A stretch of 64,000 bases of DNA from Bryum argenteum (Eukaryota; Streptophyta; Bryopsida; Bryales; Bryaceae): positions 13,746,727 through 13,810,726 of the forward strand of contig CM073327.1 of assembly GCA_037043015.1 (NCBI GenBank). The letters are read 5' to 3'. Below, piece after piece: positions 7,351 to 61,533 of the stretch. Made by a program: the position numbers and the translations under genes. The notes under the pieces are model-generated. The model had not been told where the DNA came from, ran no database searches, and saw only the letters and a list, made by a program, of their open reading frames with translations. Positions within the stretch are counted from its first letter, which is position 1. Every line of letters begins with the position of its first letter.

Positions 7351-7413
7351 GAAACAATTAGCCACAAAGGAATGTAAGTTTACTTGTACAATCCACTCAT
7401 GTACATGGTACAT

Positions 7414-10344: not shown

Positions 10345-10590
10345 GACTGCCTCTCAAACTACGCACAGCCTCCACAGTCCAAATGGGTTCAAAAAGGACA
10401 CACTAACAAACAACACACTAACACAGAACGCCTTCATCATCTCCCACAACAACTAGAAAACACTGAAATCATCTAGCAGAACTAGAAACCCTGCAAATCA
10501 CGCACATGAGCAGTTGTAACTAGTTAGAGGTTACCTTCGAAATCAATCTGAGCCGACTAGAAAACTTCTCGAACTTCACCTCCCAATCAG

Positions 10591-34933: not shown

Positions 34934-37101
34934 CTAAGCCCGCTGGCCAAGTTTCTCAGGAGGTAAGAGATGACCTATAGTTTTAAGAAGCTGGTGAATT
35001 TCAAAAGGTTTTCCTAAATAGCCATCCATCCCATGTCTAAGGCATGTGTCTTGGTAACCGTGAATGGCATGGGCAGTAAGCCCCAAAACTGGCAGCCGAG
35101 TCCACCCGTTCTCACTTTCAGCTTTTCTTATCAGCTCCGTTGCCATCAATCCGTCCATTACTGGCATCTGCCACCGACCAAGCCATACACATAAGCCTAT
35201 CTTCACTTTCTCTTGACGAGAATCAGAAGTAGATTCCAGATTAAAAGTAGAAAAACTAGGGGAGAATTGTGGCATTTTTACCGAGCTCAATGACCCATTC
35301 CACCATCCACCAGGATTTAAGAACGAGCTTGGTGGAATGAGACATAAAATAGTGGTGGAGAACCTGGTGGAAGTACATACAGTGATGAAATAGTCACTGA
35401 AGGATAGTCTTGAGGCATACCTGGACATCCATTAGGACGAGGTCGAAGCTATCGTGTCGGGAAGAGACCACATCCAGGGCTTGCTTTCCGTCACCCACAA
35501 TAGTGACTTTGTGACCATGCTTTTCGAGTTGCCTACTAGCGATCTTCTGATTGATGGCATTGTCTTCCGCCAGAAGTATCTGCAAACTAACCTTGTTCTT
35601 GATCATACTATCCAAGTCCGCCGAAGACTCTCTGCTCAGATCTGACCTCGCTGGTGATGGTGCATTCGCTGCGGCTCGACCTCTTTCACGTTCCGAAGCT
35701 TCGCTGGAATCAAAAGGACCTTGTTCACGCGGCTTGCCCATTGCAGATCTCTCTCCCCAATCCGAGAGAGTAGAGGACGTATGTGACAACAGTGGCTGGA
35801 GATGGACCCCTTCTTCCTGTCCTGAGCTTGTGACTTCACTGCTTGCGCTTCGGTCACTGCGGACAGAGTCCCCATTGTTGAAACTGCTGGCTTTGGTCGG
35901 ATCTGATAATGTCTTTTCTAAATTCGAGCCACCTCGTAAGCGGTCCCGTCGTTTACGACCTTCACTGACTTGTGCGGGTGTCACAGCTTCAAAGTCTTCA
36001 ACATGTCCATTCGATTCCTCTGCCAACTGCTGGAAATCACTGGCCGACCGAACCTTCGGAGTTCGAGTCGCTGCACCTTGCTCATTTACCTCGCTCACTT
36101 CTTTGTTTGGATTGAAGGTTAAACCTCCCATCAGACTCCATTGGCGGAAACTATTATCTACGCACAGAATTTGAAAACATCATAAGCTACAAGAACATCA
36201 AATTAGTGGTTCGATCACATGACTTCAAGCCGAAAGTTCTTCCATCTCTCGAAGCAGGAAATATATTAAAGAACAACAACAAACCTGGTTTTAGCCTCGG
36301 ACTTTCTGGTGGGCTTTCTTTCGGCTTGTTGAGATAGAAAGGCAGCCGAAAGTGAAAGGCACTACCCTTGCCTATTACACTCTCAGCCCATAAGGTGCCT
36401 CCTAGAAGATCGACAAATCTGCAGCAAACACAGGAGGGGAGGGTGAAAAGAATTTCAGACAATCTCAAAGTATCAGGGTAGACTAGAAGCGGGTTCTGAC
36501 AGACACGAGCACTTCGATAACCGAAAACAGACAGGCCTTTTCGGATTCAAAAGTACTCTAATTGACAATATTTAGTACCTCTGAACAATGCAGAGACCAA
36601 GCCCAGTTCCACCGTAGAGACGCGAAGTTGACGCATCGGCCTGTGTGAAAGGCTTGAACATATCTTGTAACGTTTCCTGACTGATTCCAATTCCAGTATC
36701 GCGAACCTCAAAGTCAAGGAACATACTCGCTAGGAGGTCGAACCGCTTAGAATTTCCTAGAGAAATACTGGACCTCGCGACCACTCTGTTGCTCAGATCT
36801 GAAAAAACCCACAACAACAGCGGTTCAGAACTAAGAATTTTAAGAGGCATCGCTGAACAGAGCATGAAAGAAACGAGAAATTCGCCATTATTACCATCAT
36901 CTGAATCGATGGGCGGTTTAACTATTTGCTCCGCTGCTACCTTCACATGCACGCTTACAGAACCCTTGTGCGTGAACTTCAAAGCATTGCCAACTGCAAA
37001 ACCAAAACCAGTAAAAAAGAGAAAATATAAGCACTAGAACCCTTACACCAACACAAGTATAAATCTTTAAAATCCCCATGACAAAATGAAGCAAACAACG
37101 C

Positions 37102-37139
<38 letters not shown>

Positions 37140-39350
37140 GGCAAAGGGAAAACTTGATAATCCAGAGTGGGTGTAGAGGGAAGTTAGTAATGAGCTTGAC
37201 CTAAGTTCAGTAGGCATTGTTGAAGTTTCCCGACATCGCCAACCAAAGACTGAGGCACTCCATTGTCAATCTCCAGCAACAGCCCCAGCCCACGCTGTTG
37301 CGCCCGTGGCTGGAGCATGCGAAATGTGCTTGACGCCATTTTCCGAATGTTGAATGGCACATTCTCAACCTCTAAACGCCCTGCTTCGATCTTGGCGAGG
37401 TCTAGAACACTGTTGATGATATGCAAGAGAAGATCCGCACACTCCTTGACCGACACTAAACTTTCCTTCTGGTCACTGGTGAGCTCTGACTCCAACAGCA
37501 AGGCTGTCAAGCCAAGAATCCCGTGAATCGGTGTCCTGATTACATCCAAACACAAATTTAGTTAACAGCACGTCTTTGAATTACTCAAAAGGCATAAACT
37601 TCGAATTCTGTGATGTAGAACATCTGGACCAAGTAAAGACATTTACCTGATTTCATGACTCATATTTGCAAGAAAATCTGATTTCGACTGGCTGGCTTGT
37701 TCGGCATTTCGCTGTGAGATTTGGAGCTCCTCGTTAGCTTTACGAAGCTCGGCTGTTCTCGTATCTATCCTTTGTTCCAGCTCAACATTCCAGTGGCGTA
37801 ATCTTTTGGTGAGGTGCTTCTTCTCCCTTACTGCTGCGGCCAGTGTTATGCCCACTACTCCTATCACGCAGACGAAGAGTTGAACCTGACATACAAACAC
37901 CGTAACTTAGTCTAGCAGTACTTGATCGCATGCTCCATTTCAACTTTTCTACGCCGCTGTACAGATCAGTCCAGAATGCCATAAATAACCGCTTCCGAAT
38001 CTAAGCTGGTGCATGAAACACTTCAAAGAAGAATCGATGATATACAAATACAAAGAAGGAATAACGATCTTCCATTCTTGAACGATCCAAACATGCTTTG
38101 AAAGTAGCGATCACCGACTCATTCTCTGCACTGAAATTAACCACTTGGAGATCCAAAAGAGCACCAACCTGCAGTATAAGCTCCGGGGACGATACTGATG
38201 AATTCTGATTCGAATAAAGGGCACCCCGCTGGCGGATTGAACCTACTGCAGAGCAGTAAGCGACAGCACTTACAGTAAGGGCCCAGCCTACTCTGTTAAA
38301 CCGAAAAGCAGTCCAGGTAATAACAGGGAAGCACAGATAAGCTCGTGGTCGAAAGGCCTTAAAGTTGATGAAAAACACAACCGCCACAACTGCAGCAGTC
38401 GTCAAGGCTACCAATAAACACTCCAGCGACTTGCAAGGATTCTTAAAGTGTGATTTATACTCCCACGATAGAAGATGCGTCAGAAGTGGCGTCACAGTAA
38501 TCATGGTTGCCAGAATCCCGAGCCACCAAGTAGTCCAGTACCGCCAAAAGCTCGCCCATTGCATCATAGGAGTGATAGCAGTAACCAGTGAGACGATGAT
38601 GCTGAAAAACAACGAAAGGAAGAAGACGGTAGTCAGATACCACATGGCTTCTTTCACGGAGTCAATAGTGGGCACGTTCTTCGTGCCCTTGCACAGAAGC
38701 TTCCGTAGTATAAAACCACCGAGATGGCTCTGGCATGTAGTTAATACACACACCAGCAGCAGGACCAAGCAATTCGCAGCAGTGAAGCCAAGATTTCCCC
38801 GCCATATCAAATACAGCCTTGTGAGATACAATCCCACGAAATTGCCTGGAATTGCAGAAGCTGTCCATACACATGCCACTGCAAGTGCAACCGAATGGGG
38901 GAGGTACAATGGAAAAGGGATAGTTCGATCGTAATGATCTCGAAGCCCAGACACTGAGCTTTCCCATGTAACCACGCCACTGATTAGTATCAGTAGCATA
39001 GCTAACAAATTGCGGCCAAAGAGTATGGAGAGCGTAGTAGCATCCCTTGGTCGGTCTCTCCATGATCGTGAAACCTCTTGACCTAACCCTAACACGACCC
39101 TCCGTGTTCCAGAAGAAATTCTTCCTCCTGTTTCTTGTAGTGACCAAGATGAGCCAGGCTCCCTTTGATCTGCTTCCTGCGGGTAGTCCACTGCTCTAAC
39201 ATCTCCATTCCTCCAAGGATAAACCGCCCGCTTCAATCTCTTAGATATAGTAATCCTCCCGCTACCTTCATTACTTTGCGATTCCAGCATTTTCATGCAC
39301 ATAAAAATGTTGAGATACTGGCGATAGAAACCGTTGTTCGTGGTGTACAA
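34934..39350 (-). CDS. Hybrid histidine kinase with N-terminal MASE1 sensor and C-terminal receiver
   Basis: Eight exons fit together with GT-AG junctions and correct phase: 39350-38145, 37885-37647, 37535-37201, 36993-36895, 36798-36579, 36418-36285, 36157-35421, 35167-34934 (1067 residues). Residues ~105-425 have eight or nine membrane helices with MASE1-type segments ([50 protein letters not shown]). A coiled linker leads to HisKA with the phosphorylated His479 in NMSHEIRTP. HATPase motifs follow: N box NALKF (596), G1 DTGIG (660-664), F box FKPFTQAD, G2 YGGTGLGL (688-695). After a Ser-rich linker comes a receiver with E942/D943, phospho-acceptor D988 (LMDVQMPVMDG), T1021 and K1043. It should autophosphorylate at the membrane and start a phosphorelay. 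The ligand is unknown. The start could be any of the Met codons 1, 17, 19 or 21. The gene looks fully functional. Confidence 0.9.
37105..37138. repeat. Poly(A) tract in an intron of the histidine kinase gene
   Basis: An unbroken run of A of about 33 bases lies between the third and fourth coding exons (intron 37200-36994). Confidence 0.85.
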
Positions 39351-41040
39351 TACACTTTCATCACGTTTGAATCACTGTTACACTAGCCTCTCTGTATAAA
39401 ATCTCCACGAGCCTATATGTCTCCAAGCTAAGTCGCCTTTCTTCAACCTCCACACCATGGCGCCAAGGTCGATTTCAAAACACGATTATGTCCCTTTCAG
39501 AAGTCGTCCTTCCTGAGCACGATTAGGTCTGTCCCTTTCAGAAGTCGTTCTTCCTGAATACATCAAGATTTGAATGAATGTCCCTCCGGAGCTAATAATT
39601 CCAAAACCCTTGCATAAACCAGAACCTCTTGAGATGAACCAAGACAGCCGATAAAGGCGTCTCCGCTATTGTGGCACAGAAAGATGGGGACTAAATGCGT
39701 TTCTTAGTAAGAAACACAGTAGTCCAGAAAGCTCATTCCATGCTCACGGATGCTTCTAGCAAGAACTGCCGTGAGGTGAATTAAACACAGCAAGGATCCT
39801 CTGAAAGCCGAAAAAGCTTCTAGGCTCTTACGAAGGACCGACTAAAAAAAGAACTGCAAGAAACTGCCGTAGAGGCGATGTGGAGTAAGAGATTCACTTT
39901 GTTCACACCGAAACAGCTAAAAGAGCTCAAAACAAGCTGATATGGAATTATCACAACGAATTGCGAGCAATGAGGATCGCAACAAGAAGCACTTCAAGAA
40001 GCACTCGTCCGACAACTCATGAACTCATGAATTTTCCTGTTCTCTGAAACAGTGAGAAGTGTAGAGTACCTGAGCAGCTCGAGACGGCAGTTACCTACTA
40101 CAGGGAAAGCCCATCCCTCCTGAGAGTGTAGTAGCAGCTTCTGAATGGCACAGCAACGAAGTGAAACCTGTTCACCACGTCATGGAGGCAGAAAAATATG
40201 GTGGAAAGTGCTGGCAAATGCCTAAGTGAAAGGGTAAAGCCACAATTAGCTCGCCATTTGGACCCTCGCTACTGTTTATAAGTGGGTACTTGAAATGCCT
40301 GCTTTCGTCGCTTCTTCTCCTCCTTCTCCTTCTCCTTCGGTGACGCCCGTCCCCGTGACCGCCGGGCCCTCCGGACCCACATTCTTTATTGTCACGGACC
40401 TCCACTTGTACACTGTCGACTCACATTTGCCGTTGGCCGCAATTATGGAAGGCGACAATATAGAGGGATAAACTGTGGCCGCCGGGTATGAATGTGATCA
40501 TGGTGGTGTTCTGCTTCACAGAATCAGAATGATGGAAGCTTCTTCAGGCTAGACATTGCATCCTGAAAAGTGCTGAAATCCCTGGAAATCCTATCTCATG
40601 AGCAGTGAGCAGCCTAGCCCTGAGCGTGCGCGGTGAGCCGACGATACGATGAAAGTCGTCGATGCTAATGGATGAAGAAGTCCATGGAAGCATGGATGGA
40701 TGAAAAATAGAGGAATTTGTTATTTCGTAAGCCTTTACGAGCTCATTGTGCTTAACTATGAAAGCAATGGTCCTAGTCCAATAAACATGTGTAAATGCAA
40801 AGGCTTGGAAACTAAGTTTTGCGTAATAAAATTCTAAAATTGGAATTTGGCTTTGCAGATTTTACCACATATAATATGTATGTCTTTCCACACTCATAGC
40901 AAATGATAGTCCAAATTTCCAAAATTAAACCCTTTATCTAGGCTGCCCAAAACAACAAAATGCCAGTATGGTTGCCTTGGGCACTTAGGGGTTAAAGAGT
41001 TTTAAGGACTAATGTAGATAAAGCAGATAGATAGATAAAA
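39351..41040. other. Upstream region of the histidine kinase gene
   Basis: It should hold the kinase promoter and 5' UTR. A short duplicated motif (CCCTTTCAGAAGTCGTYCTT) lies at 39491 and 39533. Minus-strand open frames at 40172-40458 overlap in two frames with Arg-rich or Gly/Glu-rich low complexity and no homology that I can see, so they are not called. A TTAAACCC...GGGTTAAA inverted-repeat relic is at 40926-40996. Confidence 0.4.
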
Positions 41041-45060: not shown

Positions 45061-47192
45061 TGTGATTTTAATGAATTCATTCACGTTGACAATTCGATTT
45101 GCTTTTGTTTTTAGTGGTGGATGTGTGAAAAGTGAATTAGGTCTTTCTACTTATTTTGAGTAAACAAGAGATCCTTGCTATACAAATGTCCAATGCTTTA
45201 CAATCAAAGTTCTTATTCTCTTCCTAATGACAATTTTTATTTTGAGTAAACAAGAGATTCACCTTCTCTACACTGCTATACAATCAAACTTTTTATTTTC
45301 TCCCTCATCACAATGTGGATATGCAATATTCTTCATGTGAGGTGCAATGCATGACTACGAGTTTTTTTCTCTTTTTCGTACAAACACTCATTCAAAAAAA
45401 CACTTGGAATGATATTTCTTGTAGTCATGAGCAAATTCATTAACCTCAAAGCGGTGAAGGCTCCAGGCCATGGGACAAATTTGTATTAACAACTAAATCT
45501 CAAGGCCATGGGACGGATTTGTATTAACCCCTAAATATCCTTAAAACCCGAATCGGGGTTTGGAGCTTTTGGTCAGGGTCGTTTTTGGGGCAAAAATTAA
45601 TATTTTTGGGCGCATTTTTTACAGTACAGTTCTATAAAGAAGGTGTGGTAGAAAATTTGAAAAAAAATTCCAATTTTTTGCCTAATTTGGCATTTTTTCG
45701 AAATCAAGCTTCGGTGGGGCAGGTTGGGCAATGCTTTCGGCAAACCACGAGTGATGTCAGATTTTGGCGGGCAACATGGGTAAGTGTCCAAGATTAGCGA
45801 GGGGCAGGGTGTTTAGAATGGGATTAGGAATAAACCCTTGATACAAAATGGGGGTTGGCCAACAAGAAGCACTAAATGAGCAAATGGTATGGCCCACCTA
45901 TCCTAAGTAAATGCAGAAACGGACATGGCAATCACCACTATTGGCGGTTGTTCTTTTCAAATTTCAAATTTGCAACAAATTTTGGTTGTGCTCCAAAACA
46001 CAACATGGATCTCCAACTACTCTCCAACTAAATCTTCAGTCTTACATACAAATGCTTCAACACTCACAAGTCATGATTTGAATGTCAATTCTCATAGCAA
46101 AACTAGTGAAACCAATGTTGTAAGTCATAAGAAACTAGATCTGAGTTGCGATTCCGTTGTCATTGCTCGGGGGGGAATGCACGGGTGTGAGCGGGGAGCG
46201 GTGAGCGGTGATTGGCAGATTTATTTTTTTTCATGAAAGATTAAGACCCTATTACCACTCATTGCAAAGACAAATTTAAAAGTTAATAGCCCTATTACCA
46301 TGAAATGGGTGGTTCTGAAATTTTGAAATGGTTAGTTTTAGGCATAAAAGTACCCAAAACCGTGGATATAGGTCCTTTATCCATTTATTTTCATGGTATT
46401 GAGGTCCTACACTATTTCATATATAATCCACATTTGCAAGTTTAAATAAATGTTAATTAAATTATGGATTGGCGTCATCATGTGTAACCAATTCAATTCA
46501 AATCATATACAAAATCTAAACCAAAATTTGGGATGGCCCTTTAGGAAATCAATAAGTTTATTTTACCAGTTTTAATATTTGGATACTAATTAGGACTGAC
46601 GTCATCAATGTCCTATTACACTAGTCACAATTATATGCAATTGCTTCGATTTATGGTATCTGTAGTTTAACATTACAGGTCGCCTTTCCGTGTCTCCTTG
46701 TAAGGTATACAGAGAGACATTCACGTGGCATTGTAGTGGTCCGAGTTTGATTCTCCTCGGACTCGTTTGAGCGTTGCAGTGCGTCTTAAAGCCGCTATCC
46801 CGAGCTATACAAATACTAGACTATAGCCCCTCCCAACATTGGCAAGATTCAATCACTCCAATGGAAAATAAAAAAATCTTCTAAAACTTTTAAACTTAAA
46901 CATTTAGATACACCGGTGCATTGAAATTGGAGTTTAAGAAGTTACATCAAGTTAGGGCTCACGTCACCATTAAAGGCAATCATGGCTTTAGATTACATAG
47001 TATTGAGATACTTATAGTAATACTTGAAGCACTTAGTGTAGATTAAGCTATCAACTATAATCACGATAAATAAAAATATAAAATCGTATATATTTAAAAA
47101 CACATATAGATGGTATATAAGTAATAGATCATGGTAAACTACAAAGGTATGGCGCTACCATGTCCAGTACCTATCAGAAAACAAATCATGAA
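45061..47192. other. AT-rich spacer with a SINE-like copy
   Basis: No gene is supported. A ~35-bp direct repeat (AGGCCATGGGACRRATTTGT, then ATTAAC) lies at 45462 and 45503. A single TTAACCCCTAA end is at 45523. The SINE-like copy at about 46680-46860 is listed separately. Confidence 0.4.
46680..46860 (+). repeat. Second SINE-like copy
   Basis: CCGAGTTTGATTCTCCTCGG is box B-like. The following ACTCGTTTGAGCGTT and the GTCTTAAAGCCGCTATCC-like tail resemble the element at 41260, which has ATCCGTTTGAGCGTTTAATG. Confidence 0.45.
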
Positions 47193-50100
47193 CTAGGCAG
47201 ACGGTGTAGTACCATTAAAGTGATGATTACACTGATCAGCCTCAAAGTCTATAAACTTAAGCACACTATTGCTATAACGTCGACGTGGAGTGTCAGACAA
47301 AATGGGAGATGGAGCTTGAACAAACTCTTGAGCAAGACGCTCAGCGTAGGATGGTAGGGTGAATTTTGATGGAGGGCTCTTGTAGAGATGAGCGTTGCGA
47401 GTCAATTGCTCTTTCAGACCTGCGATCTTAAAATTGCAAAGAAAGTCAGTCCTACCGATTTGAAAGTGCGTAAGTTAAAATCAAAAAAGAGAACACAAGA
47501 TGGTATTACGCACCAATGAACTTTCGTGGCTTCTTCACGACCGGGAGGGGCTGATTCTTCACGTTCGTCAGAATCATAGTCTGCGGGAGGGGCTGATTCT
47601 CCACTTTCTTCATCACCGGGAGGACCATTCTTGTAATCCGCGAGTACACCATCAAAGATCTCTTCGTCCGGTTCCATAGCGATGAGGTGTCGGTTCGAGC
47701 GCGCGCGCAAGCAATCACAGATGCACCTAAAAAATCAGAAGCCCACATTAAAAACGCGAAACGTAGAAACGAATTCTAATGTAGAGTCTACGGAAACATT
47801 ACATGTACTTGCGCTCCAGTCGAAGACTATACCCCCCTCGTCCGTGAGACAATCGACGAAACATTGAATGAAGGAAGGGTCCTTTTCTCGTGAGCCTCTC
47901 CACAGCGTACCGTCCGGACGATAACGCAGGGTTTCTTTCTCTGCAAAGTTACAGAGGTGGTCTTCCTCATCAGGTACGATTGCCACACCCGCGTATGCGT
48001 GTGACACTTGCCGAGTTTGGAAGTTCGAAACATATTCTTTGCGAACATACACTTTGATATGGAAGCAGTGAGTCTGCAAAACACAAGTATAGATACATTA
48101 ATATAGATGCATAGACGGCAATAACCATGAATTGCGAAATTGGAAACTAGAATCTGATTCGTACCTCTTTCGGTTTGGGTACGATAGAGGCCATAGGGAG
48201 GGGATTATATCCCCACCAGTCTCGAACAAGACGAAAACCATATGTATGCGACTCAGAATCGAGAGTACGCTCAATTTTACGACATTTGAGATGCATCAGA
48301 AGAATGGCTCCAACGTCTGTCAAATGATACGCGGCAAACACGAAGAGGCTCTCAAAGTAGGTTTTCTCACGCCGGTTCCAGGATGGAATTTCTGTTGGAG
48401 ACACACCCGGTACAAGCAAGTTCTCGGGAGCATCTGCAAAAATGAGATCAATCCATGGATGCTTGGGTTCATACTCCATCGCCGAACACGGGTACTTACG
48501 GTCTTTTACAATCTGAGATATGAGTCAAAAATTAGGTAGTGGCTAATAGATTTACAAGTACAAAACGTAACAAGGGAGATTATGAATGACAAATGTATGA
48601 AATAATACCTTCTTGATGTGCTCGACAATATCTAGGATTTGCGAATCTCATTTTGCCGTCTTCGATGACTGGTGAACCAAATCTCCAATGTTCCCCTTCT
48701 CCAGATTCATTGGCAGAGTGACTGATATTTTCGACGACGAGCTGCTAACAATGTGATTGGGTTTCGGAAGAGGGCGTCTAGCGAATATTGGCTGGCTGAG
48801 GCGACGTGGGGACTGCTGCAAGTTGTGGTCAACGATGAATGATTGAGGTGGGGACTCAGCATTCGTAAGTCTACCTGTTGAAAGTTGAGTCAATCTTGCA
48901 CCGCGTCGAATTGTATTGTTTGCGGCTCCCGCTGATGTCTGAGTCAGATCAGCATCTTCAGGCCCTGCAATGTCTTCTGAGAGGGGAGCATTTTCTTCTG
49001 ATTCTTGCTCAAGATCTACAACAGGCTCTGCAAGAGCGTTGCGTCGCTTCCTGTTTGCACGGGACTTGGGCACTGCAACTGGTGAACAAGGAGAAGAGAT
49101 TGGATCATGTGCGACTTGTAAAATAGAGAGGTCGTCATCGTTATCGTCGTCAATGTCCATTGGTGCAGAGTCAGCTGGGTTGGAAGCGAGGCTCTGAAGA
49201 AGATGCTTCTCCTCCTTGTGCACGTAGTTGTTGTCGCACTCCAGAAACCATCCACCGGTCGTCAATTGGGAGTTAGTAAACCGCTCTTGTTGGGCTGTGG
49301 AGAAAAACCTGCGGGGATCATTCGTGACTGTAATGTCCTCGAACTCCATTTGAATGGAGAACGAAGCTAATGCTCCCTTCGCAACGAGCTCTTGTTTTAA
49401 GTACCTACAAAAATTTGAACAAATCAGATACTGAAGATTGAACAAGTTGTACCAATTTTATTAATATTAGAGAGTAAATTAGAAACATACCGGAATAAAA
49501 GTCGCTTAATTGTGGCTTTGCCTCCGGTAATCTTTTGAAGATCTGAGCCTTTGATGAACTTTGGGCTTGCATTAGGACCAAGATAGTTGTTGAATGCCTT
49601 GTCTCATTAGAGCAGCCTCCACTTCTGGACATAAACCGATGGCTTTAGGACAACACTAGACCACTCAATGTTGAGGTTCTCGTTTTCAACGAGATACTGC
49701 ATTTCACTTTCAAGTGATTGCTCTAGCTAAAAATACAAGAAACATGTTAGAATGTAAAGTAACTGATAAACTCAAATATTGTAATCATGGAACGAAATTG
49801 CAAATTACCTGTGCCCAAAATGAAGCCCGATGGAGAAATGCAACCAAAGCTCTATCTTTCATCGGGCGTTCTTCTGGAAAACGAACCGATCGCCGAACTT
49901 CGTTTGGTGAGTTCCACCATTGCAGCCACTTCGCTTTGAAATCGAAGTGAACATTGGTGGTGGCTACCATGTGTAAGCGATAGATTGTCATATCGGGCTT
50001 CAAGTTTTGGCTGTAATGAGAATAAATCTGCGCATGAGAATCACAATTTTGGTGAGAGCAATAGACACAAAGACGGAAACAATGATATGAAATCAAAGCA

Positions 50101-51561
50101 CGCAGCCACATTTACCTCTTTCGCAAAAACTTTCCCAAGTTTGTTATTCGCCACAGCGACCATCTTGTCGAAATTCTTCCCACGAATTGACTTGATCTCA
50201 GCCTTGATGGCGTTATCCATAGCACTCCATACGCCCGCTCCTGTTTGCTTGTCTTTTGGAACCGTGGCGTAGTACGTAGCTTCAGCATTGTCTGATGCTT
50301 TCGCTAACCTCCTCTGTATACCAAATCAGAACACAAGTCAGAAGTTGTTTTAAATAAAAATGAAGGAACAGAGTCAAGCACATATATAGTTAACGTACCG
50401 CGTATAGAAATTTTACAAAAACGTCTATAGTGACAAGATACCAAGTCTCCTTTTTTGCTTTCGCATTTTTACAGATCCTGTAATCCTCTGGAGAAATGAG
50501 GTTCTTGAAATCTTCGAGTTTCAATTTCCCAAACTTCCTCATGCGTTGCAGTTTGGCACACAAACTGTCCTCGACATGATCATGTTCAGTGGACCTACAA
50601 AATAGAACGAAAGATAAAAAGAATTGAATATGAGAAAACCATAAAATGAAATGAAATTTGGAAATGCAACATTTACTTACCAGTTAATGTCGTTCGTAGC
50701 ATCGAGGAGGAGATTGCTTTCTCCCCGGGCATCGAGTACGATGCAGTCAACCGAAATGTACCACGAGGGATCATTCTTGTGGTACCTCTCGATATGACGC
50801 ATCCACGCCGTAACACGATGGTTGCCTTTGTAAACATAAAAGTATTTGTCGCTAAGGTCATGAAGATCTGGATCGGACCGCAACATACTCTCGAACTCCT
50901 CGTTTGCGGCTTTCCAAAGCGGGTTCGTCCACAATTCATCTTGAGTGTCAACGATTTTTTCTCGACCTTTCCTATCAAAGGGCAACACGTACATTACCCG
51001 ATCGCCTTTGCGGTATCCTTTGTTGAACTCATTCTCAAGTTTCCTGACGTCTTGTTCAGAGATCGGGCGAACCTTCGGATAACAAACGAGACGGCAGAGT
51101 GGAATTAGCATACGAGACTTCTTAACAAGTTTGAAGCGTAACCTGTTTATGATTGCAATCGAATCACTCTTGTGGAGCATTCGCATCTCGTTCGCACTCC
51201 AGTCGGGGTCCTTGTTCTGAAGATGTTGAGGCACGTGAATGATTCCAACATTGACACCTCCTGGCAATGTAGTTTCTTCATCATCCGAGAGGGATTGGTG
51301 GATGTCATGGTCCTGGGACGGTAATTGAATATCTGCAGCTTCGAGAGGATTGTCACATGAAACTGCATTGCATTCGCCTTCCAGAGGTTGGCGAACAGTT
51401 TCCGAAGGACTCTCTTGCTGATCTCTAGTTCCGAGGTCTTCAACAGTTCCCACACCATCAAGTATGATTTCATCTCCGTTGGAAGGTACAGATTGTGCAG
51501 GATTTCGAAGAAGCGAGTTGGCATCTTCATCTTGAATGAGATGGGCTTGAGCTATGTTCAT
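47193..51561 (-). pseudogene. ParB/Srx-like plus N6/N4 DNA methyltransferase-like gene, with internal stops
   Basis: Ten exons join with GT-AG sites and matching phase: 51561-50681, 50594-50399, 50313-50116, 50027-49809, 49726-49491, 49404-48609, 48512-48165, 48073-47803, 47726-47514, about 47420-47193. Exon 1 starts MNIAQAHLIQ and contains VRPISEQDVRKLENEFNKG and YVYKGNHRVTAWMRHIERYH then ISVDCIVLDAR, like the ParB/sulfiredoxin fold with its GNHR motif. Exon 6 is an acidic, disordered linker. Exons 7-9 look like a beta-class DNA methyltransferase: WIDLIFADAPENL (DPPY position), DPSFIQCFVDCLTDEGGIVF then DWSASTCAS (FxGxG position), RSNRHLIAMEPDEEIF. Catalytic motifs are altered. Lesions are TAA-TGA at 49604-49609, TGA at 48648-48650, and a frame change in a (GC)5 run at 47699-47708. 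Intact splice phases around these argue for recent decay or assembly error. Confidence 0.6.
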
Positions 51562-51700
51562 CTGGCAATGCACGAAACCAAATACAACACAACAGAAAAG
51601 AATAACATAGTGTAAAATGAACAATAATATATAGAAAGTAATACATGTTCTTTTTGTAAATAAGTATATGATATACATATCATATAATGTGACGATACAA

Positions 51701-53827
51701 CTAAGGAGTATGCAACTTTGTGGCAAGTCGCGGAGAACGTCTGAGTGCAAGTCTAGCTAATTCTTTCACTTGGATACGTAGAGCTTTGGCCTCATTCTTC
51801 TTAATTCGCATGTTGACCGCTCGTGCAACCCGATCTACGTCACCACGTGATGTGTGACGGACAGGTGAGGCAGGAGGTGGAGTTTCCGGAATCGAAGACA
51901 ATGCTATGGCTAATCGACGGGACTCCACTATAGCCAACACATGGTCTCTCAAAGTGGATAGATCGCTATCCGCATCCGATTCTTCGTCTTTGACAACTCT
52001 TGCATGCTTCCAACGATCCTGCCATACCAACAAAAAATTTAGCTACGTAAAATCTTCTAAAACATATAAAAAAGGATAATGCAAATCTAAGCATACAAGA
52101 ACTCGGGGAGCCACAATCCTACAGCACACGATTGCGTTTCCAGGGAGTCCGACGCATTAAAAAACAACAAAATTGTCCACCAAACTCGATCTAGCATAGA
52201 GGATCTGTCTCAGGCCCGCACACAAAGACAAAGATGAGACCTCGACGGCAACCAAGGTAAGGGACAGCTTTTGCAAGCCAGATGGAACAGAGTGATGCAA
52301 GCACCCTGCAATCAAATTTCCCACACATATGCATAACAGCCCGGAAAAGAATAAAACGTAAAAAGTGAATAAATTGCAGAGTGCTACTGCAATGAGAAAA
52401 ATGCAAAGCCGAAACAAGGGCCACGCCCATCACCGAGCACGAGCATGGTCTCCCACCCAGCTACATTTCACGAGCTCAGCAGCGTAGAGGAATGCCTCAG
52501 GCCCGCCCACGAAGGCACAGAGCCGTCATCGGCTACCTGAAGGGAGTGCAGATGCGAGCCAAGAGAGGGCCGTGATCAAGGCAAGCACCCTGCAATCGCT
52601 ATACCTACACCCATGCAAACGACCCCGGGGAAGAATCAAAAGTAAAATTTTAAAAAAAATTCAAAAGTGGTCCTTCACCTCCCAGACTTGCGTCAACGCA
52701 AGTTTGGGGAGGTTTCCAGCAATCCTCCAAATGCAGGGGCCACCCCCATCACCGAGGACGAGTCAGCGACCCCCTCCCGCCACTTCTCCTTCTTCTACCT
52801 CCATCCAGCTGCATTGAGGAGTGCCTCAGGCCCGCCCACGAAGGCACTCAGCCGTCATCAGCTACATGAAGGGAGTGCAGATGCGAGCCAAGAGCGGGCC
52901 CTAATGAAGGCAAGCACCCTGCAATCGCTTTTTCCACACCCATGCAAACGACCCCGGGGAAGAATCAAAAGTAAAAATTGATAAAAAAGAGAATTGTTCC
53001 TGCGAAGAGAATACAGTGCAATGCCGAAACAGGTGCCACGCCCATCACCGAGCACGAGCATGCCTCACCCCCCGCCATCCTCACTTCAAGAGCTCAGCAG
53101 CATAGAGGAATGCGTCAGGCCCGCCCACGAGTGCACAGAGCTTGATCCAGCAAAACTGAGGTGTGCCTCAGGCCGCCCACGAGTCGCAGAGCCTTCATTG
53201 GCACAGAGCTCTGAAAGAGGCTCCTCAGTCAAAACGACGCCACCGACCTAGTATTCTGTTCAGGAAGCGGCATTACAGGCAAAATCGATGAAACTCCAAC
53301 AATTGAACTTCGGAAACTGTAGACCGGTAAGACTGCCGTTGCAAGCAGATCACGAGGACGACGACAAGGGCCGAATTTCGAAAAAAAAAATTCCTTTTCA
53401 GAGAACAGCGATGCACACAATCGATGAACTCAATTTTTCCACAAAAGAAGCAGAGAGTCCTCGGCATCCTCAAGTACCAAATTGAGTACATGATGAAGGA
53501 TGTGAATCTTACCTTGTAGCCCCTCGCAAACCACGCCTCCTTTTCTTCACGAGTCTTCACTATCATTTCTGGAGCATAACAGAGAGCGTATTCCCTATAG
53601 AACTCATAAAAGATGCTTGACTGTGAATCGACACTCACATTCTCTGGATTCATCTCCGTGTTCTCTTCTCCTTGGACCACTGTCTCCTCCTTCTGCTCAA
53701 GGTTCGCCATGACCTCGTTCGCTTCTACAACTGAAGCTCCTTCGCTCGCACGAAACTCAACATCGAATAAGTTTACACTGTTTAAAAAACAAGTTGAGTC
53801 CTCCAGGGCCATCGCTATCCTTGACAT
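51701..53827 (-). CDS. Unknown two-exon protein, 210 residues
   Basis: Exon 1 (53827-53513) ends WFARGYK at a GTAAGA donor. Exon 2 (52018-51701) starts DRWKHARVVKDEESDADSDL after TATGGCAG and ends LATKLHTP with a TAG. Phase agrees. The N-terminal part is acidic and Glu-rich (SEGASVVEANEVMANLEQKE) with FYEFYREYALCYAPEMIVKT. The C-terminal part is basic and helical (VARAVNMRIKKNEAKALRIQ, KELARLALRRSPR). No domain is recognised. It is on the same strand as the ParB/methyltransferase-like gene, whose start lies only 140 bp beyond its stop. That could mean an upstream gene of a conserved pair, or 5' exons of the same gene if the TAG is another lesion. Confidence 0.5.
52200..53235. repeat. Diverged ~300-330 bp tandem repeats within the intron
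   Basis: CTCAGGCCCGCCCACGAAGG and AGCACCCTGCAATCGCT followed by CATGCAAACGACCCCGGGG recur. The first motif is at about 52207, 52497, 52826, 53115 and 53168, the second at about 52290, 52590 and 52918. A CACGCCCATCACCGAGCACG-type run also repeats (52423, 53038). The array lies in the 1.5-kb intron of the two-exon gene. Confidence 0.75.
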
Positions 53828-54710
53828 TAAGGACGTCCATGTTCATCTACGTGGCTCGGCGGAAAGCAGCTAGCTTCGGCTAGGGTTTTGACGGCAGTTT
53901 GATGCTGCTATTTCGGGGCTCTGCCACGCCGCAGGCTCTTCTCGGAGGAGTGAAGGCATCTTCGACAAAATCGGAGGTGACGGGGCTTCTGAGCCGCTTC
54001 GAACAGCGCCGATGAAGAAGGCGGGATGCTTGAGACAGCGTCGGTGTATCGAAGGTGGGAACCGGGTATCACTACTTCGAAACGGGTATCGCAGCGCATG
54101 TGAGTAACGGGTATCACAGCGCATGTTGTGAACCCAAAAACCGCCATGAGGTGGCATTTGGTCACAAGGGGTTTTGAAGAGCAAGATTAGATGAGAAAAG
54201 AAGAGGGGAAGAAGGAAAGACAAGAAGAAGACAAGGAAATAGGGAAGAAGAAGAAGAGAACCACCGGCCGGATGGCTTGGAAGTGGTCTCTACTCTTTTG
54301 ATTGCCATTCCTTCGTCTTAGGTCCAAATGGGGCGTGCCATAGCTTTTTGGAAAGCTAAGCTCAATGTGCACACGCCCCTAAGATCTCAAAGGCAGAGGA
54401 TCAACGAGCTAAGACTGATTGCTGTTTGACTGTGGCGGTTTTTGCCACTGCCGGGGGGGAAAACTTTTTCAACACCCCGACTTTGGAAGCTCATATCTCC
54501 CTCTCTACAACTCGGAATTGAGCATGCTTTATATCATTGGAAAGCTCTACTGGAGCTCTATCTAGTGTAGAAATCTCAGAGGAGTTGAAGAAAAATCGAG
54601 TGAGCTATGGGGGAAACAATCTGACTGACTTTCATAGGGCAAGAACAAGCTCTTATCTTAATAACAAAGGAACTCAATAAGGAGGAGGAAGATGAGTGAG
54701 GCAAGACAAG

Positions 54711-54915
54711 CATTTTGAGAAGGGCTCTTCTTCTCCTAACTACTAACACTTCAACAACAAGATCATTTTGAGAAGGGCTCTCCTTCTCCTAACTACTAAC
54801 ACTTCAAAATCAAGATCATTTTGAGAAGGGCTCTTCTTCTCCTAACTACTAACACTTCAACAACAAGATCATTTTGAGAACGGCTCTCCTTCTCCTAACT
54901 ACTAACGATTCAAGA
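54711..54915. repeat. 54-bp tandem repeat, four copies
   Basis: Each unit has TTTTGAGAAGGGCTCTTCTT, CTCCTAACTACTAACACTTC and an AACAACAAGATCA tail with few changes. A looser related unit (CCTTCCTCCTCCTAACTAC) follows at 54956. Confidence 0.9.
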
Positions 54916-55689
54916 AAGATGATCAAGGTGAACAAAGAGGAAAAGGAGGCCGATGGCCTTCCTCCTCCTAACTACATAGATGAATAGGTAGGTGAACAAA
55001 ATGGAGGAGAAGGAGGCCCAAGGCCTTCCTTCTCCTACTCTAACGTAAACTAAGAGGAAATGGAAGAGGTCAAGATAGCTTGGAAACAAGCTATTAAGTA
55101 CCAAATGGGAGCCGCCAAAAAGGCGGCTCACCCTAACCCTAACTAAGGCTCAAAGCCCTACTAAGGTCTCTTCGATGAATGCCACCACTACTTCACGCGC
55201 TCCGTCCTCCAAGCATCCAATCCATCACCGGCTCTACCAATGGAAGTAGCTCACACATATCATCCAAAGTTAAGTGAATAAAACCAAGACAATCAATCAT
55301 AAACACTAATATGAACATCAAAGGTTAGAGGTGAAAGGCCAAGGGTAAAATGTCCAACTCTATTTTAAGCAACTAACCCTATTTCTAATTAAGGATCCAC
55401 TAGGGGGATTCATTCCTCCTCTAGTCATTCCCCATCGAACTATGGATCCACTAGGGGGATTCATTCCTCCTCTAGCCCTTCCACACCCTAAAGCTTAATT
55501 TCGTGCCAAACAATCTACCGAAAGCCTTCTACCAACGAACCCTTAACATTCATATTACATTCATAACTAGATTATCCTAATTCCATCAAATTACTTCAAA
55601 ATGACATGGTTTGCTAAATCCTCATTGATAAAAACCACAATAAACAACATTTTAACAAGAGAGCGTATAACACGCTCTCACACATGTGG

Positions 55690-56215
55690 AAACGGGTATT
55701 GCAGCGCATGCACCAGGGTATCCCACATGGGAACCGGGTATCAGAGGAGGTGGCATCATCGCGGGTAGAATAATATAGGCGGGACAAGTTTCTAATGGAG
55801 AGTATAGGGTATCAGAGTAGAGGTACAGGGTATCAGTGTAGGGGTAAAGGGTATCGAAGGTACATGAGCGGTCTGGTTAATACGGGTGGTACATGGTATC
55901 AGAGGGGGCTACTGGGTATCATAGTAGGGGGGTACATGGTATCCTAGGTATAGAAGCGAGCATGATAATATGGGGGGGGCAGAGTATTAGAAGGGGGATA
56001 AGGTGTATCCTAGTAAAGGGGTTTGGAGTATTTGAGGTAGAGTAGCGTTCAGCGTAATATATAGGATTACTTGGTATTGTTGTAGGGGGAGCAGGTACCA
56101 CAAAAGGGGGTTCAGGGTATCAGTGCTAGTGGAGCAAGGAGAATAATATAGGAGGGTACAGGGTATTATTGTGGCGGAAGCGGGTATAAAGAAGGCGCCT
56201 GAGTACAAGTTATCG
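55690..56215. repeat. Degenerate GGGTATCAG-rich array
   Basis: GGGTATC or GGTATC occurs over a dozen times at irregular 20-45 bp spacing, mixed with G runs and AGRGTACA motifs. Earlier short clusters of the same motif are at 54050-54125, 13360-13405, 16305-16350 and 25285-25315. Confidence 0.6.
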
Positions 56216-56466
56216 AAGGGGGTGACTAGACATATTGTATAATTGACTCGTATATTTTACATTCCATGATAACTTCACCCACACACTATATTGTATTTGC
56301 GATTATCCTGAACACCGTACTTAGTCACTGCAGGCCATATTTCTGTGATTTATACGTATTACAACAAAACAAACGTGAACTCAGTAGTTGTGTTTCATCA
56401 CCAATTCTAGACCAAAATCTACACTTGCGTGCCTAAAAATCATAATCCCATATTTATCCTATAGAG

Positions 56467-57169
56467 GTGAATGCTAATATGTGTCCAGACTCCTTCATGA
56501 CACTTAAGAAAAACGTCATGTCATTTACCTCCTCCTCTAAAATGCGATCACTTGTATATTCATCTTCCTCATCATCTACCAACTTCTTCTTCTGGTCCAT
56601 CCGCTCCATGTTCTGGGAACTGGTCTTCAATTCTTTCTCCGTATCGTCATAACCTATATCATCTATGTCATCGCCCTTGAGACCTTCCTCGGCATCACCC
56701 TATTATGCAAACATTCATTTCATTAAACGAAAATTGTATTGACTTAAAGGCAAAAAGTCAAGAATACTACTGTACATGTTTCTCGCAATCTTGTGCATCC
56801 TCATCACCTCTTACGTAATAACATAGATAATCGCTGGACGTTGATTCTTCTACCGCGCTCCTCGTCTTCTATAAATCTATTGAACTCGATCACATCATCA
56901 ACTGTATCTTTCTCGCCAACTTCGATCACTGTGTCAAGATTGATCGACCGCATTTTGAGATTGCGCCTATGCTGGGGCCCGACTTCATCATCGTTCAGAT
57001 CATAATCAGCAGGGCCTCCCTCATCTCCACTCGACCTAGACGCACCCACCTTTCGCAATGCACTTCATTTGCGCGCTTTCGTATTACTAAAACGAGTACC
57101 CCCTCTCTTTTTCTTCTTCTTCGGCACACTCTCAATGGATCTTTCAGACCCCAAGTTCACCGCGTTCAT
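56467..57169 (-). pseudogene. Small charged nuclear-type gene, divergent from the MULE-like gene
   Basis: From the ATG at 57169 the minus strand reads MNAVNLGSERSIESVPKKKK then KRGGTRFSNTKARK, a strong NLS-like start. An in-frame TGA follows (57065-57067), and the frame continues SALRKVGASRSSGDEGGPAD, YDLNDDEVGPQHRRNLKMRS and VIEVGEKDTVDDVIEFNRFI to about 56804. A second acidic block at 56700-56467 (GDDIDDIGYDDTEKEL, MERMDQKKKLVDDEEDE) is probably another exon, but the junction is unresolved. No known domain. It starts about 510 bp from the start of the plus-strand transposase-like gene, so the two probably share an upstream region. Confidence 0.45.
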
Positions 57170-57680
57170 AACGTCAAGACTCTAAAGAAAAGGACACAGA
57201 TCGTGCCGTCTCAATACCTTACCAATACCAACTAAACGAACAAAGGAAAAGACCATATCGTCGTCCTACTCTTATTTATACTAAGTTTACCAGCCGCCCC
57301 ATAACCTAATTCGCTCAGTTGATCATAAATTATCACAACAAATACGGCGGCCCATGGTTTGCCAATTCTGACAGTCTTTGACATAAGATGCTAATCTATT
57401 TTTTGAATTTGCATACAAATGCTCTGACAGTGACGGTCGCCGTCACTTTTCCAATCTTGAGACTGTCAACACTTGCACATTAATGACACTAATTACAATT
57501 GCCTAATGGTATACAGTATTTACTCTTCATTATGGTAATTGTCTAATTTATTCACTCTCGTAACCTTATTTACTTCCTTACGAGTTCCTACTACCAATTT
57601 TCTCTTATAAACTGCAACATACCTAATCTGCATCTTTTTTTCACATCCACTGTCGATGCTTGTTGGTCCCCTTGCACATC
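57170..57680. promoter_or_regulatory. Shared upstream region of two divergent genes
   Basis: About 510 bp separate the two starts. A CTTTTATAAACTGCAAC-like run (TCTTATAAACTGCAAC, about 57602) lies ~75 bp before the plus-strand ATG and could be its TATA box. On the minus side TTATTTATACTAAG (about 57269 on the plus strand) could serve. Bidirectional promoter activity is inferred from layout only. Confidence 0.35.
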
Positions 57681-60600
57681 ATGGCTTCCTCCTCCTCTGA
57701 ACCCACTGCTGCAGACATCGTTGAGATTGTGTCACAGGGAGCACTTGTTCCCATTTGCATGTCCGTAGGGCTTGAAGGTGTGGTAGACATCACTGCATCG
57801 TGGCTTGGAATTCGATTTGGCTACGATGCATCTTCCCTGTGGTTAGAGAGAGAAGTTCTTGAACCCGTTACTAATCATGTTCAGTACTCCATGGTCGTAG
57901 ATCTAATCATCCTAGAGAATAATACTACAATCTGGAAGCTTAGAGCTGGAAAGTATCGCCTCTATGGCTTGATTGAGTCCATCATGAACGCCTCAACAGT
58001 TCTCCTGACCCCACGTAGTTCTTCTACTATATCTACCGTAGCTCTAGCTCTTGCTCGTGTCAAAGTCGAACCAGGTCTCGAAGTCACCATTAACATATTG
58101 GATTCATCAGAAGATGAGAAGAAGTCTCCTCTGCAGCTCTGTCGTCTGCCGTCTGAAATTCCATTGCAACCTCCTATTAGGGATAGCTATCTAAGAGCCA
58201 CCCCTCCTTCTTTACTTTCATCGCATATTGTAAAATCCAAAAAAATTCTTCCATCCCTCTGCAATCTCGCTAGAATGCCCAGTAGCAAGACTCTCCTCAA
58301 AAAAATTGATTTCAAAACCATCCGCACTCTCAACGTATCTTTCTTGCCTCCATCATTCAATGGCGATGTTCTCTTCATCTTTCCGCCTACTCTTCCGTCT
58401 GCAACTCACAAGGTCGCGAAGTCCATGGAGGGGATGGATAAACGGTATGACGGTCATGTGTGGACTAGGACGATGACCACCAACATCAGCAATACACAAG
58501 GGTTGTCTTTCCGATACTCGAACTGTGTAGGACATCTATCTACAGTGCCACAACCCAAACTGCGACTTCTTACAACGACCTGATCGAGTGGCTGGAGTGA
58601 ACGATGTGGAGTTTGAAAGCATTACCAAAGACCCCTTCCCAGTAGGCGGATCGCCCCCGCCCACCTCGACGTTGGTTTGTAAGCTTTGCAAACAACCTCC
58701 TGTTTGTGTTGCGCCTTGTTCTGCAAAAATCTTCTACGTACTTGGAGAAGATTGTCAAGAGCGTGCATGCGTCCATATAGGAACGCACGAACATCCTGTC
58801 AAAGTCGGAGATTATAGATGTGTAAGAAAACAAATAGATGAGTTACTAGAAGAGCATGTTGACCGTAACCCTCAAGCAACCGTTTCCAAAATAGTTATGG
58901 AAACCAGCAAAGACTTGTTAGGTAACTTACTTCTCCGTGACGAAGGTGACCCCGAAATTGGCAATCTTTCTCTTCAGCAACTAGAACCAGTCTTTGAACA
59001 ATGCAAAGAGTTAAACTCTCCCAGCATGCGCAATCGTATCTACACTTTCAAGTACTTGCGTAGGTATGGCATTCTCGATGAGATCACAAAGCTGAGAGGT
59101 CTCAGCAACTGGGCATATGTGCAACACAACATGTTCCCTGGCCAAGGCGACGAATCGGAGAAAGTCTTCATCTTCAAGATGTCCGAGGTCGGCCCCGGTA
59201 GCGGTGTTGATCTGGTTCGCCGTATACAGCCTCGAGGAAACTTCTCCCACGCATGGATGATGTTTGACCATGTCAAACGCGTTACGGATTGGACCACCAT
59301 GGCGTGCCACGTGTACGACTCAAGTTACCAACGCATTCTAACCATTGCATGCTGTGATTTCCAGTCAGAGGACAAAGATGCTCAACTCGTCTTCTGGAAA
59401 AACCTTAATCATGTGATGGCGAGGAACGGAGTACCCAAGCCGCAGTTCCAAGGATTTATGGCTGACAGTGCTCAAGCCAACTGGAACACAGTGCGCATCA
59501 TCTACGGCTCTGGGAACCCTACCGTCCCCATGGAAGGCCGCGAACGCACATGTTATTTCCATTGGACGCAATTTCTTGAGAAACATACGAAACAATACAT
59601 TGTGCCCGAATTGCAAGGCCAACACCGGATTCTCTGTAAGCAGTATAAGGATGCGCGCACCATGGAAGAGGCTGAGACCCGATATTGGGCTATAAGAGCG
59701 TGGTGGGCATCCTCGAAGGCCACCTCCAAAGTTGGTTCAGAACACTTAGGTCATTGGCTTGCGTACTGGCACTTCAGATACAGACAATGGGGTGGATTTA
59801 TGGAACTAGTAAGTCTACAATTTCTTTGCAATATCTTTGCTGATTATATGCTCTATGGTAGCTTCTATACTGTTATGACAGTAGCATATAAACTAACAGT
59901 TATTGTTTATATATTATTAGTTGTTTTTTTTTTGTGAATTTATATACTTCCAATCTCTATTAAGTACAAATCTAAATTACTAATAAAAGCCTATTACGCA
60001 AGCCAATGACCTAAAAATATTCGGCCGAAGAACTCATAGAAATGCCTTTTTGTAATCTTGCGGAGTCAATCGATAACAAGTGGCTGTAAGCGTCTGGCAA
60101 TAAGGGTAGGGATCTCTACGTCACATCCGTTGACGACTACGTTCGGGCATTCCTCCAAGTGGTCGGCTACCATCAATTCAACAAAGGCGGTGCAAGTGGT
60201 TCTGGACCATCCGTAGAAGAACTTCGCCAGCGTCTTTATACCGCTCAACGTTGGGCAAATCGGTCCGGCAATCCATCTTGCCTCAACAAGGCAGTTATGG
60301 AATTCCCTGAAGCAGAAGCTTACTGTACGCGTGACGCCCACTTGGAGGGGGCAGAGATTTTTGGTTCCAGGAAACGTAAGGCTGATGTTCCCATTGGTGC
60401 CGAAGATGAAACTCATTGACCTGACACCGTGAGTTACTCACATCCTCGAATAGGGAGAAGAGTCACACGAGCTCTTGCTGAGAATCTCAGTCCTATCCAC
60501 GAAGAAGATGAAGTTCATGAGCAACCGCTGGAACCCCCCGCTTCTCCAAGACCCAGTATTCAGCGCGTCATTGCTAACCAAGAGACGAGAGTGAATGAGC

Positions 60601-61046
60601 GTCTATGGCACATTGCTCGTTTGAAGGAATCCTCATCCAAGGCTTGTTGGGGTATTATGGCTAAGACCAGGAAGAAATGCGAATCCCGCATTGTCCAAAA
60701 CGGAAAGGCGACCGCAGCTCCAACTTACACCGGAGTATGGCAACGTCCTCAAGAAGGTCCAAAAAAAACCGATCAGTTTTTCTTTTGTCCAGACGACATT
60801 GAGCGTTATGTGAAGGGCAGTCGTCGTAAATGGATTGAGCCGTTCTCTCAGAAACAAGGACGACCGCCTATTCCCTCAGTTTGGCCCGTGAAGATTGGGA
60901 CTAATCTTACACTGGATGAAATAGAGGCGTTGGAAAATTCGGGTTTTCGGCTCCCACAAAAGGAACGCCTTCCTCTCAACCGCACATTCAATACTTCTCC
61001 CCACCGAGAGACTTGTCACATATTCCAATGCCGGACAAGGCTGATG
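57681..61046 (+). pseudogene. MULE-like transposase gene, with frameshift and in-frame stops
   Basis: Start ATG at 57681 (MASSSSEPTAADIVEIVSQG). The frame runs to about 58540 (RYDGHVWTRTMTTNIS, FRYSNCVGHLS), then shifts by one base at CTATCTACAGTGCCAC and continues CHNPNCDFLQRPDRVAGVND to 59810. This part holds LVCKLCKQPP (zinc-type), VGPGSGVDLVRRI, WMMFDHVKRVTDWTTMACHV, CCDFQSEDKDAQLVFWKNLN, GFMADSAQANWNTVRIIYG and ERTCYFHWTQFLEKHTK, resembling the DDE region of Mutator-like transposases. A GTAAGT donor (59811) and an acceptor near 60037 fit. The next exon reads CNLAESIDNKWL, TAA at 60087-60089, ASGNKGRDLY, then TGA at 60417-60419 and another ~205 residues. Its last codons run into the gypsy LTR, which supplies the terminal TAA. 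A host-domesticated origin is possible, but this copy is broken. Confidence 0.65.
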
Positions 61047-61533
61047 TAACAGGGCAAAAACTAGATTTTTGTGTTTGCTAGAAAAGTAGATAGATAGTTG
61101 AAACCATTTTAGGAGTTTTTAGAAAATTTTAGAATTTGAGGTAGATGGCCTATGTAGGACCCACCATAGAAGCTTCGAGAAGGTGGGGCCCACCTCTAGA
61201 GTCTTCTAGAAGGGCGGTTATCTAGGTGGGGCCCACATCTAGGACCTTCCGGAAAGTTCCATGGTGGGGCCCGCCATTGGAACATTCTAGAAAGTTCCAA
61301 GGGCGGTTAGGCAGAGTATAAATAGAACTGGTCGGGGCCATTTGGAGGCATTCGGTCAGGTACGCCTTAGTCCCTCTCTCTCAGTAAAGCTTGGTTTGTA
61401 CTTTGCTTCTTTAGTTACGCTTTGTTACATTACATTTCAAGTCTATTCGGTCTTGTTTAGTCCGGTTTTCTCAGATCTTGTTAGGTTAGCAGTGTTTGAG
61501 TTGTGACCAAAGAGAGAATTCAGTCTCGTTTCA
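61045..61533 (+). repeat. 5' LTR of the gypsy element
   Basis: It begins TGTAACAGGGC and ends TTTCA directly before the primer site, about 489 bp. A TATAAATA box at about 61317-61324 marks the likely promoter. Upstream are several GTGGGGCCCACC-type repeats (61173, 61227, 61263), which may be regulatory. Confidence 0.75.

Follow-up and report, generated by a model that had tools for sequence, protein, structure and literature searches.

RESULTS

A Ten-exon Gene for a ParB/Methyltransferase-like Protein

The window analyzed here, a stretch of 64,000 nucleotides from Bryum argenteum contig CM073327.1, contains on its minus strand, at positions 47193-51561, a ten-exon gene for a protein that joins a predicted ParB/sulfiredoxin (Srx)-fold part to an N6/N4 DNA methyltransferase (MTase)-like part. 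All nine introns run from GT to AG and measure 76-96 nt. Exon 1 (50681-51561) encodes an acidic N terminus followed by the ParB/Srx-fold domain of the structural model. Exons 2 (50399-50594), 3 (50116-50313), and 4 (49809-50027), whose splice sites are conserved across copies, lead to exon 5 (49491-49726) and to exon 6 (48609-49404), which ends in a low-complexity acidic linker. The first half of the MTase-like domain, motif IV (48423-48434) included, lies in exon 7 (48165-48512), and the second half, into motif I (DWSAST), in exon 8 (47803-48073); exon 9 (47514-47726) supplies the rest of motif I and the peptide NRHLIAMEPDE, and exon 10 (47193-47419) the C-terminal tail and the stop codon.

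The splice positions are common to the window and 10 further copies in the host genome, the lone exception in the alignment being the intron 4 donor of copy c6 (ATAACT). Because the GT/AG positions are kept across the aligned copies, all exons are parts of a single gene. The ten-exon gene is real. The peptides quoted in the original prediction, which had been made from this DNA alone, are present and in the order given there. Its central claim, that one intron-containing gene joins a ParB/Srx-fold part to an N6/N4 DNA-methyltransferase-like part in a single protein, is borne out by the shared splice sites, the fold match, and the CcrM and PF01555 profiles. Its description of the exons as phase-consistent holds at the exon junctions and fails for the copy as a whole, which is not intact: exon 5 contains an in-frame TAA TGA (this exon is open in copies c4 and c5b), exon 6 has an in-frame TGA near 48648, and the frame of exon 9 shifts at a GC run near 47705, with RSNRHLIAMEPDEE lying off the exon-start frame.

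Thirteen copies were read across the whole gene, 11 in the main alignment (the window included) plus loci L033 and L034. Three are open from end to end (c4, 1166 aa; c5b, 1187 aa; L033, 1164 aa), and c1a is also open, but its stretch over motif IV is locally shifted; the remaining nine of the 13, the window among them, carry stops or shifts. The window gene is a damaged copy of a transposon accessory gene. Two loci with frames of 435 and 429 aa around exon 7 were considered as processed, intronless copies and rejected, their introns being retained and some merely free of stops. An AG stands before the ATG of the gene in all 11 aligned copies, and L034 reads ATA at this place, so that the gene may in truth begin with an exon farther upstream. 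A third open frame (51704-52018, minus strand, ending in ...RRSPRLATK) is found just upstream and ends ∼140 bases before the gene; it had no Pfam match, and L034 has a similar frame upstream of its gene copy.

The ParB/Sulfiredoxin-fold Part

According to an AlphaFold2 (AF2) model and fold searches, exon 1 encodes a ParB/Srx fold that includes a nucleotide box of the G-x-H-R type; a VIA search amounted to a second look at the list returned by Foldseek itself. Exon 1 also matched PHROG 1033. The GNHR box (50815-50826, minus strand) reads YKGNHR in the window copy, as against YEGNHR or WDGNHR in an alignment of five sequences. A search of PDB sequences with the ParB profile returned 1u5t (VPS25) at E 0.39 and 7bqb at E 1.2 as its two rows, and no ParB protein. 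A ParB family was found by Pfam in none of the five members searched, and the piece spanning exons 1-6 gave no match in Pfam to a helix-turn-helix or C-terminal dimerization family of canonical ParB.

An Altered but Selected MTase-like Part

The profile built from exons 7-9 aligned with CcrM over profile positions 20-242 of 249 (E 5.8e-6), and this part is also similar to DpnA. The structural or profile check that had been proposed for both ends of the protein thus found a match for exon 1 by fold and for exons 7-9 by sequence profile. PF01555 was matched by all five members tested (best 1e-7), one of which was two copies joined, the first member alone being below the cut-off; two loci of a divergent family also passed it. 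A single-sequence phmmer search of the exon 7-9 part against the PDB gave no match at E <= 10.

Motif IV precedes motif I, the order of the PF01555 type of N6/N4 DNA methyltransferase. As in CcrM, which aligned over most of the domain, and in DpnA-type enzymes, the Asp and Pro of motif IV are kept; unlike CcrM, the protein has DAPE for DPPY and DWSASTGAS for DPFFGVGTT, and both motif changes named in the original prediction were read in the sequence. The catalytic consensus of motif IV is (D/N/S)PP(Y/F/W), from which the DAPE of the main family departs. DAPE was readable in nine of the 13 main-family copies (c4, c5b, c6, c7a, c7b, c1b, the window, L033, and L034), the other four being frame-shifted there. 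Divergent families have DIPE (f37) and DTPF (f35), the latter near the DLPF and DLPY of two phage relatives. The motif IV Asp and third-position Pro, together with an ASTGAS..AC...RH...E block, are invariant in all five aligned members. The altered motif IV is a trait of the family and not a defect of the window copy.

The DTPF family is rare. It comprises L035, L040 (C4:20.50M), and C7:9.88M, matches PF01555 just above the cut-off, and among the matches scored accounts for two full ParB matches and one partial, at 98-100% identity. It is a candidate for an active form in the same genome.

Selection was examined by the Nei-Gojobori ratio of nonsynonymous to synonymous substitution (dN/dS) for the pairs c5b-L033, c4-L033, and c4-c5b, some of whose dS values exceed 1 and are saturated. 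In this order of pairs, dN/dS was 0.051, 0.075, and 0.043 in the ParB part, 0.080, 0.061, and 0.095 in the middle part, and 0.124, 0.149, and 0.088 in the MTase part; across the three pairs it was 0.22-0.27 in the linker and 0.15-0.51 in the N terminus. Both the ParB and the MTase parts are under purifying selection. Because this includes the MTase part, the DAPE change looks kept rather than the product of decay, and the domain that bears it looks maintained. Between c4 or c5b and L033 the synonymous distance was 0.38 in the MTase half and 1.4-2.4 (saturated) in the ParB half, ∼4-6 times lower in the former, as if subfamilies had exchanged 3' halves.

The Gene Is Carried by an Abundant DNA Transposon

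The host assembly searched comprises 259 Mb in 25 contigs; the first 300 bases of four contigs showed no telomere repeat, the start of C1 reading N. Among 1,191 candidates for the ParB exon, the best 150 were scored, all at 82-100% identity (E <= 5.4e-106), so that chance does not account for the match, and the best 150 of 986 candidates for exon 7 were likewise scored as matches. When 19.5 kb around 10 copies and the window were compared, shared DNA was found to reach beyond the gene, and four elements that were extended further measured 16,245, 15,719, 15,147, and 14,562 bp. All four begin with GGACGT.GCTACCGTGTGAGCG and end (reverse complement) with GGGGAA..CAC.GGTGTGAGCG; each has terminal inverted repeats (TIRs) of ∼43 bp, a length judged by eye, and target site duplications (TSDs) of 9-10 bp (cttgatcgat, gcgcaaatc, ggcaatgaag, and, with one mismatch, tctgccagat/tccgccagat).

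Exact termini occur genome-wide at 284 right and 232 left ends, and neither was found in a reversed control (0 of either). The pairing of ends used the first 100 places of each terminus, giving 72 left and 100 right ends on contig C1; because the right-end list ended at 40.9 Mb, the six left ends listed past 41 Mb were not used. Among the ends so listed on C1, an inverted partner no more than 40 kb away was found for 31 of the 72 left ends, of which 25 had it at 10-20 kb, with a median of 14.6 kb, and wrong-way neighbors numbered seven of 72, an incomplete count. A ParB or exon 7 match from the best-150 lists lay inside 21 of the 31 paired elements, in the expected orientation in 21 of 21.

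These data indicate that the ParB-MTase gene is an accessory gene of an abundant DNA transposon with hundreds of copies. A single host gene, or a host gene derived from a phage, is ruled out by the copy number and the element ends. The original prediction, which proposed a eukaryotic gene perhaps acquired from a phage or bacterium and then remodeled, had overlooked that the gene is one of very many copies inside a DNA transposon, and on this point it does not stand.

By homology to other copies, what remains of the transposon in the window spans 46172-61047. Its right end is kept, with a TIR at 46172-46214 (plus strand; GGGGAATGCACGGGTGTGAGCG...) that has the right terminus pattern, the left partner in other copies being GGACGTAGCTACCGTGTGAGCG. 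The left end is missing; the element breaks off at 61047, where it was apparently cut by another insertion, whose start reads (T)GTAACAGGGCAAAAACTAG on the plus strand of the window. A closely similar start (TGTAACAGGGCAA[A/G]AACTAG...) also breaks into gene copy L037/f37, after exon 8.

Contig C1 (44.1 Mb, 17% of the assembly) holds 62 of the 150 scored ParB matches and 83 of the 150 exon 7 matches, a crowding that rests on the best 150 matches and may partly reflect which subfamilies score best; C1 is possibly a sex chromosome or another chromosome rich in transposable elements. Apart from the close copies of each query, most of the ParB exons scored against two divergent queries were only 41-56% identical to them, which indicates a broad ParB(-MTase) superfamily in this genome rather than one element family.

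A Second Gene and the Mutator-like Assignment

The element carries a second gene (57627-61046, plus strand), divergent from the ParB-MTase gene, that is a putative Mutator-like transposase gene. In the window it is broken, with a frame shift near 58540 (relative to c2) and its end missing. By eye, its product contains FDHVKR, CDFQSED, MADSAQANW, CYFH, and a C-terminal CSC...CKH, the last in a region with a weak Pfam SWIM match (E 0.7, copy c7b). The MULE Pfam domain was matched by none of the transposase-gene pieces searched, and the AF2 model of the transposase was poor (mean pLDDT, the predicted local distance difference test, 45.7). The two genes occur together in copies of different subfamilies. 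We call the element Mutator-like because it has inverted repeats and because its 9-10-bp duplications fall within the 8-11 bp given for Mutator-like elements (MULEs) in the accessible part of PMC6446971, where MULE TIRs are described as commonly much longer than the ∼43 bp seen here.

Fast-changing Repeats between the Two Genes

Tandem or dispersed repeats precede the ParB-MTase gene in all 11 copies, with units of ∼31 to 1,500 bp in very unequal numbers; in c5a only a short array was detected by Tandem Repeats Finder. The repeat stretch was taken as copy positions 4501-10640, a span that covers the third open frame and may extend to where the transposase gene begins. In the window, three partial copies of a repeat unit lie at 52206-53001, upstream of the ParB-MTase gene, and a 53-bp tandem array of 3.8 units lies at 54711-54913, between the two genes. 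Partial copies of the window-derived unit number three in the window, eight in c5a, 12 in c2, 31 in c4, two in c1b, and one in c1a, with none listed in the other five.

Over copy positions 8001-9900 (1.9 kb), mutual coverage was 0-0.44 for most pairs across groups. The exceptions were c6/c7a (0.62, 0.98) and c2, c4, and c5a, which covered one another at 0.96-1.00 and were covered at 0.71-0.84 by the window. The joined introns were covered at 0.96-1.00 in the window row and 0.73-1.00 in the c5b row, the two rows compared. The upstream repeats turn over much faster than the introns. Repeats of the GAGCGGT type stand at both ends of all four elements examined.

DISCUSSION

Proteins of this kind are already known. 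Transposon-borne ParB-MTase proteins have been reported for brown, green, and red algae, with the suggestion that such a protein can bind the transposon that encodes it and modify it epigenetically, and the Ectocarpus transposon Sola1-1_Ec32 encodes a protein with ParB and N4-methylcytosine/N6-methyladenine (4mC/6mA) MTase parts (PMC12477816). The statement in the original prediction that no plant system of this kind had been described was therefore too strong. The algal type of architecture recurs here: a ParB-like and a 4mC/6mA-type MTase part in one protein of ∼1,100 aa, encoded on the strand opposite the transposase, a putative one here, within one large DNA transposon. The two differ in host and carrier, a brown alga and a 21.5-kb Sola1 element against a plant-like genome and a Mutator-like element with 9-10-bp TSDs, and also in the very high copy number and the DAPE motif IV found here, the algal proteins being compared by description only. 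In the literature searched, we found no eukaryotic transposon protein of the ParB-MTase kind besides those of PMC12477816; as far as the searches show, what is new is a plant-like host with a Mutator-like carrier, the scale, a DAPE change under selection, and a link to repeats that change fast.

There are prokaryotic counterparts as well. ParB-CTPase folds fused to N6_N4 methyltransferases are described for phages and prophages in the accessible text of PMC12704722, and non-specific nicking activity for the Bacillus cereus ParB-methylase Bce_0392 in that of PMC5512222; both resemble the present protein in uniting the two domain types, the phage fusions also in residing on mobile DNA, and both differ in being prokaryotic. 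The PNAS survey (PMC12704722) names Srx as the commonest eukaryotic member. The searches made of phage, IMG/VR, and GTDB sequences gave no close sequence relative. In viral contigs no ParB or MTase relative was confirmed (0 of 64 and 145 pattern matches, respectively), nor, in genome contigs searched with the ParB part only, was any of 130 pattern matches, and when the ParB part was compared with phages by tblastn, the two records obtained reached E 3 at best.

The identity of the protein is well supported, and the protein probably acts on the DNA of its own element. Its mechanism we infer. Most likely, it would be an accessory protein that helps its own transposon to escape silencing by binding it and perhaps marking it, an explanation on which our confidence is evenly divided. 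The gene is the accessory gene of a ∼15-kb Mutator-like transposon whose putative transposase gene lies divergent on the other side. The ParB-like part would load onto the repeats of the element, and the MTase-like part would engage the DNA at these repeats, which it might mark (by 6mA/4mC or an altered reaction) or, with DAPE for DPPY, only read. The element would thereby stay open to transcription and transposition, as VANC proteins achieve for VANDAL elements. This explanation draws on the resemblance of the fast repeat turnover to that reported for the targets of VANC, which in Arabidopsis VANDAL elements of the Mutator superfamily are rapidly changing noncoding tandem repeats (accessible text of PMC10398659 and PMC5735166). 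Common to both cases are an accessory protein encoded by the element and noncoding tandem repeats that change fast between related copies; in the available parts of these two sources VANC is not described as a ParB or MTase protein, and the likeness drawn here is one of element features. More specifically, and tentatively, a plant-lineage Mutator-like transposon may have turned a ParB clamp and a remodeled MTase into a sequence-specific anti-silencing system, with the clamp on the fast-evolving repeats and the MTase as a base reader or an enzyme of changed reaction. The nicking described for a bacterial ParB-methylase adds a rival and holds our confidence in the most likely explanation at the level stated.

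The MTase-like domain might instead be an active N6-adenine/N4-cytosine methyltransferase that marks the element's DNA, distinguishing old from new copies, protecting against host recognition, or licensing transposition. Several observations speak for activity: the resemblance to DpnA and to CcrM, which in the case of CcrM extends over most of the domain; the invariant motif IV Asp and Pro and ASTGAS..AC...RH...E block in five of five aligned members; the DTPF of a divergent family, which is like the DLPF/DLPY enzymes of phages; and purifying selection. DAPE and DIPE, however, lack the aromatic residue of motif IV, which stacks on the flipped base, and Ser replaces the first Gly of motif I; we regard an active enzyme as possible but not probable. 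It is rather doubtful that the protein helps transposition itself, by end pairing, targeting, or choice of insertion site, in the manner of the second gene of MuDR, instead of countering silencing. The ParB part and a dead MTase would then hold the terminal GAGCGGT repeats, which were present at both ends of the four elements examined, and the co-occurrence of both genes across different subfamilies would suit such a role; the fast-changing repeats, however, lie between the genes and not at the ends.

Two further explanations fare worse. That the ParB part is a nuclease or nickase, making the protein a device for modification plus cleavage that introduces nicks favoring transposition or attacks rival DNA, has a precedent in ParB-like domains with non-specific nicking or nuclease activity, including the B. 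cereus adenine-methylase fusion (accessible text of PMC5512222), but the precedent comes from a bacterial protein only, and we consider this unlikely. Capture of a host gene fragment without function for the element (pack-type) would be in keeping with the extra reading frames and host gene pieces gained by several Mutator-like elements (PMC6446971, in the part available). It is nonetheless very improbable here: the same full-length ten-exon gene occurs in divergent subfamilies, has the same orientation in all 21 end-paired elements that contain a match, and is under purifying selection between subfamilies, and no host version outside the element was noticed among the best 150 places scored.

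How genomic parasites evade silencing can be studied directly in transposons that encode chromatin or DNA-modification proteins of their own, and the present case adds a plant-like genome and a Mutator-like element to the pattern reported from algae. Several ParB-MTase subfamilies share one genome with candidate target repeats: in one of them motif IV (DTPF) is close to normal, and another, massively expanded, has a changed motif that is under selection. This contrast between subfamilies makes it testable whether the element needs methylase activity or DNA binding alone.

Elsewhere in the window, positions 2-1513 hold the remnant of another, possibly transposase-like gene (SDGCSSQFKCATAMYF and HGKGEWDGAGA, by eye), of which the piece 446-1078 gave no significant Pfam match (best E 0.3). 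The description of the genome as plant-like draws in part on a gene of the window with MASE1 and response-regulator domains. A literature search on MASE1 kinases in moss found none; the minus-strand gene pieces at 34937-39371 contain MASE1 and response-regulator domains and presumably derive from a hybrid histidine kinase of a type that we take to occur in mosses.

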